Positions 1,814-43,063 of a stretch of DNA of 43,932 bases are shown here, in pieces. The notes beneath the pieces are model-generated. The model saw only the letters and a program-made list of their open reading frames with translations. It was not told where the DNA came from and ran no database searches. The DNA is taken from the NCBI GenBank assembly GCA_947587085.1, contig CANPXX010000007.1, positions 1 through 43,932 on the forward strand, read 5' to 3'. Numbering within the stretch: the first letter of the stretch is position 1; the number at the start of each line of letters is the position of its first letter. Source of the stretch: an uncultured Clostridia bacterium. Its GTDB lineage: Bacteria; Bacillota; Clostridia; Christensenellales; Borkfalkiaceae. Position numbers and translations under genes: made by a program.

Positions 1814-3259
1814 TCAAATGACGCACAATCCGTCCGTGAACGACGTGAACAACCCCGCGACGTTCGCGCCCGCGCGGCGGAAGCAATCGATGAGATCGTC
1901 GGGCGAGGCGAGCTTGCCCTCGTACGTCTCCTTGTACCGTTTGAGCGCCGCATAGAACCGCTTCTCCCCCGCCACCTCCTTCACGCGGTCGAAGAGGATG
2001 ACCCCCTTGTCGTAGGCGATGTTGCGGTATTCGTACTCCCCCGAGAAGGCGGTGAGCGGACGGTCCATGGTGGTATCCGCGCCGCCGTTCACCTGAGAAT
2101 ACACCGAGAAGAAGGCGCGGTAGGAGCTCTCCGAAGCCGCGACCGCCTCGGCGTACGTCGTTCCGTAGTCGGGATGGGCTCCCAAAAAGAGGGCGGCAGA
2201 GAACTCCGCGAGCCCCTCGTCCTGCCACGCGTGCTCGAATTGGTTGCTCCCCACCATGGCGTACCACCATTGGTGCGCCGTCTCGTGGGCTATGACCGCC
2301 GCCTTCTCCGACGGACGCGTGCCCGTCGCGATCCACGAGAGCGCGGGATACTCCATGCCGCCGTAGGCGAAGTCGGTCTCCGCCACCACATAGCGCGGAT
2401 AGGCGTACGCGCCGAACGTTTCGCCGAAATAGGAGAGCGACTGCGCCGCGACGGCGAGGGCGGTCTCGGGCGAAGGGTCCTTATAATAATAATATGCGAC
2501 CTCCACGCCGTTTGCATCCGACGTGATGCAGTTGTACTGCGTGCCGAGCACAAAGGCGATGTCGCGCACGTTCTCGGCGACGACGTGGCATTGCTTCTTC
2601 CCGTCCGCCGCCGTCTCCTCGGCGGGGAAGCCCGAGATGACGGTGTAATTCTCGGGCACGGTGAGCGTCACGTCGTAATCGGCGCAGGCGCTCACGAAGG
2701 GATCGCCGTTGTAGGAATAGACGTATTCCTCGAACCCCTCCTCGCCGAGCGCGCACAGGACGGGATAGAAGTTGGCGAGGTTCACAGACCCCCGCGTGAC
2801 GCCGAGCCGATGGTTCACTTCGGCGAGCTCCACCTCGAAGGAGAGGGAGACGGTCGCCGTCTCGCCCTTGCCGAGCGGCTCGTTGAGGGCGACGGAGAGG
2901 ATGTTCGCGTCCTCGCCGCCCCCCGAGAAGCTCTTCGCGCCCGAGAGCCCCGTGATGTCGATCTCGCCGTAGCTCATGCCGCGGTAGTACGCCGAGAGAT
3001 AGAGCGAGGAGACGGGCGCGTACTTCGCCCCCTCGCGGAAGGCGTTGGGCCAGAGCTGGAATTTGAGTTCGTCGAACACGAGCTCGGTCTCGTTGGAAAA
3101 CCGCACCGTCATATCGCCCGTGAGTTTGTGTTCGGACGGGAAGTACTCCGCGGCGATGGTATAGCCGCTCGGCGGGGCGGGCTCGGGCGAACAGGAGGGA
3201 AATACGGCGGCGGACAGGAGCACCGCCGCGCACATCGCACAGCTCAAAATTTTGCGCAT
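1814..3259 (-). CDS. M1-family metallopeptidase, secreted lipoprotein
   Basis: Signal peptide with lipobox-like LSAAVFPSCS; GGMEYP then HETAHQWW (HExxH) with downstream E in DEGLAEF. Confidence 0.9.
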   Translation of the reverse strand: MRKILSCAMCAAVLLSAAVFPSCSPEPAPPSGYTIAAEYFPSEHKLTGDMTVRFSNETELVFDELKFQLWPNAFREGAKYAPVSSLYLSAYYRGMSYGEIDITGLSGAKSFSGGGEDANILSVALNEPLGKGETATVSLSFEVELAEVNHRLGVTRGSVNLANFYPVLCALGEEGFEEYVYSYNGDPFVSACADYDVTLTVPENYTVISGFPAEETAADGKKQCHVVAENVRDIAFVLGTQYNCITSDANGVEVAYYYYKDPSPETALAVAAQSLSYFGETFGAYAYPRYVVAETDFAYGGMEYPALSWIATGTRPSEKAAVIAHETAHQWWYAMVGSNQFEHAWQDEGLAEFSAALFLGAHPDYGTTYAEAVAASESSYRAFFSVYSQVNGGADTTMDRPLTAFSGEYEYRNIAYDKGVILFDRVKEVAGEKRFYAALKRYKETYEGKLASPDDLIDCFRRAGANVAGLFTSFTDGLCVI

Positions 3260-39905: not shown

Positions 39906-39934
39906 TTGCAAATTTTTCTGCCCCGTGGTAGAAT
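39906..39934 (+). promoter_or_regulatory. Promoter TTGCAA-17-TAGAAT for the structured leader RNA
   Basis: TTGCAA 39906-39911, TAGAAT 39929-39934; predicted start about 39941, the first base of the long hairpin. Confidence 0.65.
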
Positions 39935-39940
39935 AAAATT

Positions 39941-40084
39941 GCGTCACAATTTCATATACTAACGTTCGCAAGATACAACGGCATCGGTGTATCCTTTTTC
40001 CACGTGAACGTTAGGAAATTGTGACGCAGACAATACGGGATACTCAATGCGGGCGCCCGAGATTGTCGGGCGTCCTTATTTTTT
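39941..40084 (+). ncRNA. Candidate structured leader/small RNA upstream of the LRR lipoprotein gene
   Basis: 22 base pairs in two helices (13+9) with a 5-nt bulge on one side, apical GATACA/TGTATC hairpin, then an intrinsic terminator. Confidence 0.6.
40051..40084 (+). terminator. Intrinsic terminator before the LRR gene
   Basis: GGGCGCCCGA-GATTG-TCGGGCGTCC (10-bp stem, one G-U) then TTATTTTTTAT. Confidence 0.85.
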
Positions 40085-40114
40085 ATCCCGCAAAACTCAA
40101 AAGGAGAAAGGAAC

Positions 40115-43063
40115 ATGAAACACAAACTTTTGACGGCGCTCCTGTGCCTCGCCTCGGCGCTCTGCCTCTGCCTCGGTATTACGGCGTGCGGCGGGGAGAG
40201 GCACACGCATGCGTTTACCAACTATGTCTACAACAACGACGCGACGTGCACGACGGACGGCACCGAGACGGCGACCTGTTCGTGCGGCGAAACGGACACG
40301 CGCACCAAGGCGTGGAGTAGGCTCGGGCACGATCTGCAACCCCAAGCGGAGAAGGCGCCCACCTGCACAGAGGCGGGGTGGGAAGCATATCAAGCGTGCT
40401 CCCGCTGTGATTATACCACCAAGCAAGAGATTCCCGCCACGGGACGACACACCTACCATGAGGGGAAATGTACCGTTTGCGGACATGAGCGTCCCGTCAG
40501 CGAAGGACTAACGTATCAACTGAATGCAGCGCAGGATGGATACATCGTAACGGGAATAGGTGATTGTAAGGATACCGATCTTTTCATTCCAGAGATTCAC
40601 GAAAATTTATCCGTGACTTCAATCGCAGATGCTGCGTTCGGATCTTGCACCTCTCTCACGAGCGTTGATATCCCCGACAGCGTGACCTCAATCGGGTGGT
40701 ATGCGTTCCAGGGTTGCACCTCTCTCACGAGCATCAAGATATCCGACAGCGTGACCTCGATTGGGGACTATGCGTTTCGGAATTGCGACTCTCTCACGAG
40801 TGTGACGATTGGGAACGGTGTGACCTCGATTGGAGAGGAGACGTTCTCCAATTGTCCGATCGAAGAAGCGACAATGCCGGCATCGGCAATTTCGTCTATC
40901 CCCCAAGAGTCCTTAAAGGCCGTCACGATCACAAGCGGCGCAGTCGGAAGCAGTGCGTTCTATAAGTGCACCTCTCTCACGAGCGTGACGATTGGAAACG
41001 GCGTGACCTCGATCGGGAATTATGCGTTCGAGTATTGCACCTCTCTCGCGAGCGTGACGATTGGAAACGGCGTGACCTCGATCGGGTTTTGGGCGTTCGA
41101 TGGTTGCACCTCTCTCACGAGCATTGAGATTCCCGACAGCGTGACCTCGATCGGAGAGGATGCGTTCAAGGGGACTGCCTATTATGGCGCGTCGCATTGG
41201 GACAAGAGCGGTGTGCTCTATATCGGCAATCATCTCATCGAAGCAAAAGAGACTATCTCAGGCGCATACACCGTTCGGGCAGGGACTAAGACAATCGCGA
41301 AGAGTGCGTTCTATATGTGCACCTCTCTCACGAGCATCAAGATTCCCGACGGCGTGACCTCGATCGGGAGCAGTGCGTTCTCTTGGTGCACCTCTCTCAC
41401 GAGCGTGACGATTGGAAACGGCGTGACCTCGATCGGGGAGGATGCGTTCTATTATTGCCGCTCCCTCACGAGTATTGGCATTCCCGACAGCGTGACCTTG
41501 ATCGGGGATTGGGCGTTCGAAAATTGCTACTCTATCACGAGCGTGACGATTGGAAACGGCGTGACCTCGATCGGGGAGAAGGCGTTCGAAGATTGCTACT
41601 CTCTCACGAGCATTGAGATACCCGACAGCGTGACCTCGATCGGGGAGGCGGCGTTCGGATATTGTTCCTCTCTCACGAGCATTGGCATTCCCGACAGCGT
41701 GACCTCGATCGAATATCGTGCATTCTATTATTGCACCTCCCTCACGAGCGTGACGATCGGAAATGGCGTGACCTCGATCGGGAATTATGCGTTCTCGGTT
41801 TGCACCTCTCTCACGAGCATTGAGATACCCGACAGCGTGACCTCGATCGGGGAGGAGGCGTTCTATGAGTGCTATAAACTGATCGAAGTGTGGAATCACT
41901 CCGACCTTCCCATCGAAAAAGGGACAGATTCCTACGGCGATGTTGCTTATTATGCGAAGAACGTCTATCAAGGGGACGAGCCGAGCAAACAGACGGTGAC
42001 GGACGACGGGTATATTTTCTATGAGGACGGCGGGGAGAGCTATCTCCTCGGGTATCTTGGCGAGGAGACAGAGCTCAATCTTCCACAAGTGAGTCCGAGT
42101 GGTAATCAATATGCGATCTATCACTATGCATTCTGTGGTTGCGACTCTCTCACGAGTGTGACGATCGGGAACGGCGTGACCTCGATTGGGTACCGTGCGT
42201 TCTGGGATTGCGACTCTCTCACGAGCATTGATATTTCCGACAGCGTGACCTCGATCGGAGATGGGGCGTTCGAGGATTGCCGCTCTCTCACGAGCATTGA
42301 AATTCCCGACAGCGTGACCTCGATTGGGTATGAGGCGTTCTATGGGTGCTCCTCTCTCACGAGCATTGAAATTCCCGACAGCGTGACCTCGATCGATAAT
42401 TATGCGTTCGAGTATTGCTATAAACTGATCGAAGTGTGGAATCATTCCGACCTTCCCATTGAAAAAGGGACTGATTCCTACGGCTATGTTGCCTATTACG
42501 CGAAGTACGTCTATCAAGGGGACGAGCCGAGCAAACAGACGGTGACGAACGACGGGTATATTTTCTATGAGGATAGCGAAGAGAGCTATCTTCTCGGGTA
42601 TCTTGGCGATGAGACAGCACTCACCCTCCCCCAAGCGAGCCCGAGCGGAAAGAAATATGCGATCTATCAATATGCGTTCTATGATTGCACCTCTCTCACG
42701 AGCGTGACGATCGGAAATGGCGTGACCTCGATCGGAGAGGATGCGTTCGATGGTTGCACCTCTCTCAAAAGTATCGAAATTCCCGACGGCGTGACCTCGA
42801 TTGGGAATTATGCATTCTATTATTGCCGCTCCCTCACGAGCGTGACGATCGGGAACGGCGTGACCTCGATTGGGTACCGTGCGTTCGTGGGTTGCACCTC
42901 TCTCACGAGCGTGACGTTTACCGAAACGGAGGGCTGGTTTGTTTCAGAAAATGAAAACGCGACGAGCGGAATTGTGCTTTCAAGTGCAAACTTGCATAAC
43001 CCCGCCACCGCCGCAAACTATTTGAAGAATACATACACAGATTACTATTGGAAGCGGAAGTAA
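40115..43063 (+). CDS. BspA-like leucine-rich-repeat (LRR_5 type) surface lipoprotein
   Basis: MKHKLLTALLCLASALCLCLGITACGG lipobox; Cys/His-rich N-terminal region; about two dozen 23-aa repeats SIGxxAFxxCxSLTSxxIxxxVT. RBS AAAGGAGAAAGGAAC. Confidence 0.93.
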   Translation: MKHKLLTALLCLASALCLCLGITACGGERHTHAFTNYVYNNDATCTTDGTETATCSCGETDTRTKAWSRLGHDLQPQAEKAPTCTEAGWEAYQACSRCDYTTKQEIPATGRHTYHEGKCTVCGHERPVSEGLTYQLNAAQDGYIVTGIGDCKDTDLFIPEIHENLSVTSIADAAFGSCTSLTSVDIPDSVTSIGWYAFQGCTSLTSIKISDSVTSIGDYAFRNCDSLTSVTIGNGVTSIGEETFSNCPIEEATMPASAISSIPQESLKAVTITSGAVGSSAFYKCTSLTSVTIGNGVTSIGNYAFEYCTSLASVTIGNGVTSIGFWAFDGCTSLTSIEIPDSVTSIGEDAFKGTAYYGASHWDKSGVLYIGNHLIEAKETISGAYTVRAGTKTIAKSAFYMCTSLTSIKIPDGVTSIGSSAFSWCTSLTSVTIGNGVTSIGEDAFYYCRSLTSIGIPDSVTLIGDWAFENCYSITSVTIGNGVTSIGEKAFEDCYSLTSIEIPDSVTSIGEAAFGYCSSLTSIGIPDSVTSIEYRAFYYCTSLTSVTIGNGVTSIGNYAFSVCTSLTSIEIPDSVTSIGEEAFYECYKLIEVWNHSDLPIEKGTDSYGDVAYYAKNVYQGDEPSKQTVTDDGYIFYEDGGESYLLGYLGEETELNLPQVSPSGNQYAIYHYAFCGCDSLTSVTIGNGVTSIGYRAFWDCDSLTSIDISDSVTSIGDGAFEDCRSLTSIEIPDSVTSIGYEAFYGCSSLTSIEIPDSVTSIDNYAFEYCYKLIEVWNHSDLPIEKGTDSYGYVAYYAKYVYQGDEPSKQTVTNDGYIFYEDSEESYLLGYLGDETALTLPQASPSGKKYAIYQYAFYDCTSLTSVTIGNGVTSIGEDAFDGCTSLKSIEIPDGVTSIGNYAFYYCRSLTSVTIGNGVTSIGYRAFVGCTSLTSVTFTETEGWFVSENENATSGIVLSSANLHNPATAANYLKNTYTDYYWKRK
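40600..42920 (+). repeat. Tandem approx. 69-bp coding repeats (LRR units)
   Basis: Recurrent TGCACCTCTCTCACGAGC...GTGACCTCGATCGG blocks. Confidence 0.9.

Follow-up and report, generated by a model that had tools for sequence, protein, structure and literature searches.

The 43,932-nt stretch of DNA analyzed here (the window), from an uncultured Clostridia bacterium, carries in front of a leucine-rich-repeat (LRR) lipoprotein gene an element, with a promoter of its own, that probably (we put it at about 0.8) attenuates transcription in cis and belongs to a new RNA family found in Clostridia. At the level of sequence, comparison of its copies establishes the family, the placement of the promoter, the P1, P2, P3 and terminator helices, and two pairings that compete with these helices. 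The family is real and widespread, and it is apparently described neither in Rfam 15 nor in the open-access papers searched.

The element in the window

The initial annotation of this region had proposed a promoter whose start base lies at the foot of a 22-bp rod, made of two helices with a 5-nt bulge, followed by a GATACA/TGTATC hairpin, a terminator and, 31 nt further on, a gene with its own Shine-Dalgarno (SD) sequence. All of these parts are where it placed them in the window sequence, and the rod is seen in the fold as well (Table 1). The minimum free energy (MFE) of positions 39906-40114 was -83.3 kcal/mol, as against -48.3 +/- 4.2 for shuffled sequences (z -8.3). In a profile search the protein encoded downstream matched PF13306 with an E value of 3.4e-189, and its N-terminus, MKHKLLTALLCLASALCLCLGITACGG, resembles a lipobox-type signal sequence.

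Table 1. Parts of the element and of the gene behind it, in window coordinates
Feature	Position	Strand	Sequence, pairing and basis
Sigma-A-type promoter	39906..39934	+	-35 TTGCAA 39906-39911, 17-nt spacer, -10 TAGAAT 39929-39934; sequence
Predicted RNA 5' end	G39941	+	sequence
Probable attenuator RNA, promoter-proximal	39941-40084	+	sequence and fold
P1 5' strand (outer helix, at predicted RNA 5' end)	39941..39953	+	GCGTCACAATTTC; pairs with GAAATTGTGACGC 40015-40027
P1/P2 bulge, 5' side	39954..39958	+	ATATA in the window; AATA/CATA-like in most members
P2 5' strand (inner helix)	39959..39967	+	CTAACGTTC; pairs with GAACGTTAG 40006-40014
P3 apical hairpin	39972..39993	+	P3a GATACA 39972-39977, P3b TGTATC 39988-39993; fold and covariation
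P3 loop	between P3a and P3b	+	GGCAU, conserved
P3b strand GTATCC	39989..39994	+	complement of linker GGATAC 40038-40043; proposed competing (pseudoknot) pairing
P2 3' strand	40006..40014	+	sequence, fold, covariation
P1 3' strand	40015..40027	+	sequence, fold, covariation
Putative switching linker	40029..40043	+	antiterminator 5' strand GACAATACGGG 40029-40039; GGATAC 40038-40043 pairs with P3b
Antiterminator 3' strand	40056..40067	+	CCCGAGATTGTC, the terminator 5' arm and loop, open to capture by the linker
Predicted intrinsic terminator	40051..40084	+	10-bp stem 40051-40060/40066-40075, loop 40061-40065, U-tract 40076-40084
Shine-Dalgarno of downstream gene	40101..40106	+	AAGGAG; sequence
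Gene under probable control (982-aa BspA-type LRR lipoprotein)	40115..43063	+	PF13306; ATG 40115

Past the U-tract, TATCCC (40084-40089) can pair with GGGATA (40037-40042), which would enclose the terminator in a readthrough transcript; other copies in the genus have GCGGGC/GCCCGC at similar places.

An RNA family of the Clostridia

BLASTN revealed two further copies in the genome that contains the window. Of 61 relatives, 21 also had the element, every one of them in the same genus. With a covariance model (R1; the E-values of all the covariance models are rough) 86 of the 101 genomes of the genus were positive, with up to 13 copies each, as were 43 of 248 genomes of the order, belonging to 24 of 115 genera. 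A second model that included divergent copies (R2) identified the element in 76 of 392 genomes of the class, in 45 of 222 genera. A sample of the phylum gave just two other hits, both marginal and neither convincing; one (L189) was rejected as a T-box-like GGGUGGUACCGCG stretch and the other (L190) because nothing beyond a terminator hairpin was present. A third model, built on the class-level copies, found none in 398 other genomes of the phylum. Since the hairpin is nearly palindromic, it casts shadow matches on the opposite strand (for example window 39929-40027, minus), and these were discarded. The genome of the window contains a fourth copy, which belonged to neither training set and has kept both competing pairings. 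Among public species genomes, the apical motif was matched exactly only in assemblies of 'uncultured Clostridia bacterium' from rabbit gut ('Lapin'). This RNA, which about one fifth of the sampled genomes of the class carry, often in several copies, and which lies outside Rfam, would count among the more frequent of the so far unassigned regulatory RNAs in gut Clostridia.

Across 46 members 94.6% of the cells at paired positions held standard pairs, and 37 of the 39 pairs had changed on both sides, with a covariation score of 0.610; shuffling lowered it to 0.202, and sliding to 0.134 or less. An independent set of 26 class-level members, not used in building R2, was again 94.6% paired, with changes on both sides in 30 of 39 pairs and a score of 0.644 (0.183 shuffled). 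Both alignments (A3 and A6) had been made to fit the structure in the model. Compensatory changes were found in 11 of the 12 modeled pairs of P1 and in all 11 pairs of P2, whose sequence is almost free while its pairing is kept, and seven of the eight modeled pairs of the terminator helix covary, with 99.7% of its cells paired among the 46 members and 100% in the class set. Sequence conservation is concentrated in a few places: the P1 core CACAA/UUGUG across the class, an [AC]ATA motif in the 5' bulge in 114 of 129 copies, and GGYA or GCCA in the apical region in 113 of 129. Conserved P1, P2 and P3 helices, a bulge and an apical motif, all upstream of an expression platform and strongly covarying, make up the arrangement of a riboswitch-like aptamer.

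The copies used for counting positions were found by the RNA alone. In 127 of 129 a TANNNT -10 box ends 4-7 nt ahead of the element (mostly 6 nt), which predicts an RNA 5' end at the foot of P1. At least 87 of the 129 (68 of 100 in the genus and order, 19 of 29 in the class) have an SD sequence and start codon within 60 nt past the U-tract, with most start codons at 11-35 nt, in many families; several of the copies that lack a nearby start codon are interrupted by the end of a contig or locus. In most copies, as in the window, the terminator lies between a promoter and a gene.

The initial annotation had placed the RNA in front of an LRR lipoprotein gene, which is accurate for the window and too narrow for the family, since zinc-ribbon, DUF6273, AMP-binding, GDSL, AAA and small uncharacterized genes follow it too. 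Of the 52 proteins encoded behind copies in the genus, 27 matched LRR_5, 13 matched DUF6273 and about six were zinc ribbons; outside the genus the RNA precedes LRR lipoproteins, zinc-ribbon membrane proteins, AMP-binding proteins, a GDSL lipase, DUFs, AAA proteins and small uncharacterized proteins. In the window's own genome only some LRR_5 genes have the leader, two LRR_5 coding regions (contigs C7 and C54) lying behind a copy. No pathway is shared by the downstream genes, which is unusual for a metabolite riboswitch. Because the RNA precedes surface lipoproteins and accessory genes of unknown function, identifying its trigger would bring to light a regulon of host-associated bacteria that at present goes unseen. 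Two recurring types were seen among the small class-level proteins (L165 and L183; L163, L168 and L176), the cysteine-rich 'M(I/L)IDITGI..TPGN' and 'MADYKKLYFKLF'; neither matched Pfam.

Tandem copies, each with its own promoter, occur in three loci (L160:2746-2888 and 3038-3180; L178:1259-1451 and 1501-1664; L180:1501-1660 and 1726-1886). In L180 an SD sequence and ATG stand between the first copy and the second promoter, which looks like a duplication of the entire leader. Two records labeled 'Bacteriophage sp.' from human faeces, MT835845.1 and MT837627.1, each contain a family member in front of a lipoprotein or zinc-ribbon gene. The member in MT835845 adjoins ordinary chromosomal genes (ClpB- and YicC-like ORFs), and for that reason carriage by phage was dropped and is not claimed. 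Viral contigs scanned with one motif pattern gave no match.

The Rfam check agreed with the initial annotation, which could not match the RNA to a known class. Against the 4227 families of Rfam 15 the window yielded nothing at the gathering score except two tRNAs, and the best match to the element at low stringency scored 18 bits against a threshold of 40. Neither 14 divergent loci nor 20 class-level loci had a match at the gathering score; one class-level member searched at a low threshold gave no family, the trpB motif (threshold 59) reaching 18.9 bits. Searches of the open-access literature turned up no paper on this RNA, and the main texts of PMC11109978 and PMC8040213 contain no matching motif.

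Competing pairings and the proposed switch

Both competing pairings lie outside the covariance models, and since the alignments had been fitted to a structure, these pairings were tested without an alignment. For 69 representatives we compared the duplex energy of each member's own strands with that of strands swapped among members (20,000 permutations). The linker and the 5' half of the terminator paired at -16.4 kcal/mol when taken from the same member and at -10.0 when swapped (z -17.5, 0/20000), and the apical strand and the linker at -15.0 versus -10.1 kcal/mol (z -15.2, 0/20000). The order set supported both pairings too, as did the class set taken by itself, with 0/20000 in each for linker and terminator. 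The controls pairing the apical strand with the reversed linker, and upstream DNA with the linker, were not significant, while a composition control, the reversed linker with the terminator, had a small effect (-9.1 versus -8.2, z -3.4, 5/20000). Examples of competing strands are AAAAGUGCUUCCC/GGGAAGCAUUUU (L160), GUAUCUC/GAGAUAC (L138), CAAUUCGGGG/CCUCGAAUUG (L018) and CAUUGAGAGA/UUUCUUGAUG (L156).

In the window the antiterminator noticed earlier, GACAAT (40029-40034) with ATTGTC (40062-40067), does pair; it is lengthened by CGGG (40036-40039) with CCCG (40056-40059), and it covaries with the terminator across many genera. It excludes the pairing of P3b with the linker, as both use the linker, and two covarying pairings that exclude each other indicate an RNA built to attenuate transcription in cis. 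Its antiterminator is likewise mutually exclusive with the terminator. The riboswitch-like attenuator of the initial annotation is strengthened by this covarying antiterminator and by the second pairing that competes for the same strand. For window transcripts ending at 40067-40070 the MFE structure is the antiterminator, and from 40075 on the terminator overtakes it (-22.0 versus -15.0), being about 7 kcal/mol better, so that polymerase would read through only with the help of kinetics or of a factor.

We infer the following course of events, in which transcription, termination, the direction of switching, the default state and the trigger are all predictions. Transcription would start at the base of the long P1-P2 rod, topped by the small P3 hairpin. 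If the linker pairs with the 5' half of the terminator, the antiterminator would form and RNA polymerase would run on into the gene (ON); if the 3' strand of P3 takes the linker, the linker would be withdrawn, the terminator would form, and the transcript would end at about 145 nt (OFF). Because the open or closed state of P3 would decide the fate of the linker, a signal that closes or opens P3 would set expression. For P3b to pair with the linker while the 22-bp rod stays intact is geometrically demanding, and partial opening of the rod or action in trans may be involved. The competing pairings supply the exact mutations for tests of mechanism.

In its working the element resembles a riboswitch-type attenuator, with the label of riboswitch class putative. 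We favor direct sensing of a putative ligand by the P3 loop and bulge region as the likeliest mode, at somewhat less than even odds. It is more tentatively suggested that the family forms a new riboswitch class, in which a common signaling molecule or ion would control surface-protein and accessory genes across Clostridia through a three-way competition of P3a:P3b, P3b:linker and linker:terminator.

Alternative readings and related systems

P3a is similar to the linker, and P3b to the 5' half of the terminator, so that the signal between apical strand and linker could in part reflect a repeated hairpin read twice by a protein. A leader bound by a putative RNA-binding protein, which would recognize P3 and the similar antiterminator hairpin and stabilize the latter as in ANTAR- or BglG-type regulons, is a less probable reading that nevertheless has to be taken seriously. 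P3 and the antiterminator could pass for duplicates of a single hairpin, the many unrelated genes per genome would suit a global protein regulator, and the P1 CACAA/UUGUG core is unusually conserved. Against it, no CAT_RBD protein was found in the approximately 93%-complete genome of the window, where controls were positive in four genomes; that genome has a single NusG-family match, and therefore no LoaP-like paralogue was seen; and the antiterminator loops are not hexaloops. A search for ANTAR proteins gave no match in the genome of the window, nor any in the control genomes. Known protein-dependent antitermination leaders (BglG/RAT; ANTAR, such as EutV, PMC3369931; LoaP, PMC12691694) do have, as here, a hairpin over the 5' half of the terminator as antiterminator, but the present RNA carries its own competing strand and lacks the ANTAR-type pair of hexaloops.

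The initial annotation had also considered a stand-alone sRNA of about 145 nt, which would act in trans with the nearby genes present by chance. A complete promoter-to-terminator unit and some copies without an obvious gene close by would fit this, but we regard it as improbable because the start codon, with its SD sequence, follows within the short distance counted above in most copies, and an RNA acting in trans needs no antiterminator, yet the antiterminator pairing is under selection. Multiple near-palindromic copies in front of unrelated genes, and the tandem duplicates in three loci, could also indicate the end of a mobile element (a MITE or an IS200/IS605 end) or a 'mobile attenuator'. 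However, copies in distant families keep the pairing by compensatory changes and not the sequence, the conserved unit spans promoter to U-tract, the downstream proteins scanned had no transposase domain, and neither the window copy nor a class-level copy matched plasmids, which leaves such an origin quite improbable. Attenuators scattered before unrelated genes have been described (Naville and Gautheret 2010, PMC2965389); those are related to one another and precede unrelated genes, as here, but the present family is old and covarying, has its own promoter, and extends over many genera of one class, and its copies are not recent IS remnants.

Ribosome stalling in a short ORF that sets the fold, as in a leader-peptide attenuator, is very improbable: a window ORF from ATG 40047 does reach the LRR start codon, but only 29 of 69 representatives have any frame of at least six codons with an SD sequence and start codon inside the element, even under a lenient rule. 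This window ORF (40047-40117) crosses the terminator, its TGA overlaps the LRR start codon, and it is not conserved in the family. The order of promoter, structured RNA, terminator and gene is also that of a type III toxin-antitoxin RNA antitoxin (ToxIN-like) with its toxin gene; heterogeneous downstream genes (LRR, DUF6273, AMP-binding, GDSL, zinc ribbon), none of the ToxN family, and a transcript without tandem antitoxin repeats make that reading exceedingly improbable.

Among the closest known systems, the c-di-GMP riboswitches of Clostridia occur in many copies per genome in the leaders of adhesins and other surface proteins, with terminator control. Our family shares this copy number, surface-protein context and terminator control, but neither class of c-di-GMP riboswitch was matched in Rfam and no common fold was seen. 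Orphan riboswitch candidates with terminator platforms, such as the trpB motif (RF04312) and other motifs of Narunsky et al. 2024 (PMC11109978), likewise combine a structured leader RNA, a terminator, a complementary antiterminator strand and an unassigned ligand. The trpB motif differs from the present RNA in fold and sequence, and ours is set apart by its 22-bp rod, by the second competing pairing that covaries, by its many copies in a genome and by downstream genes that share no pathway.
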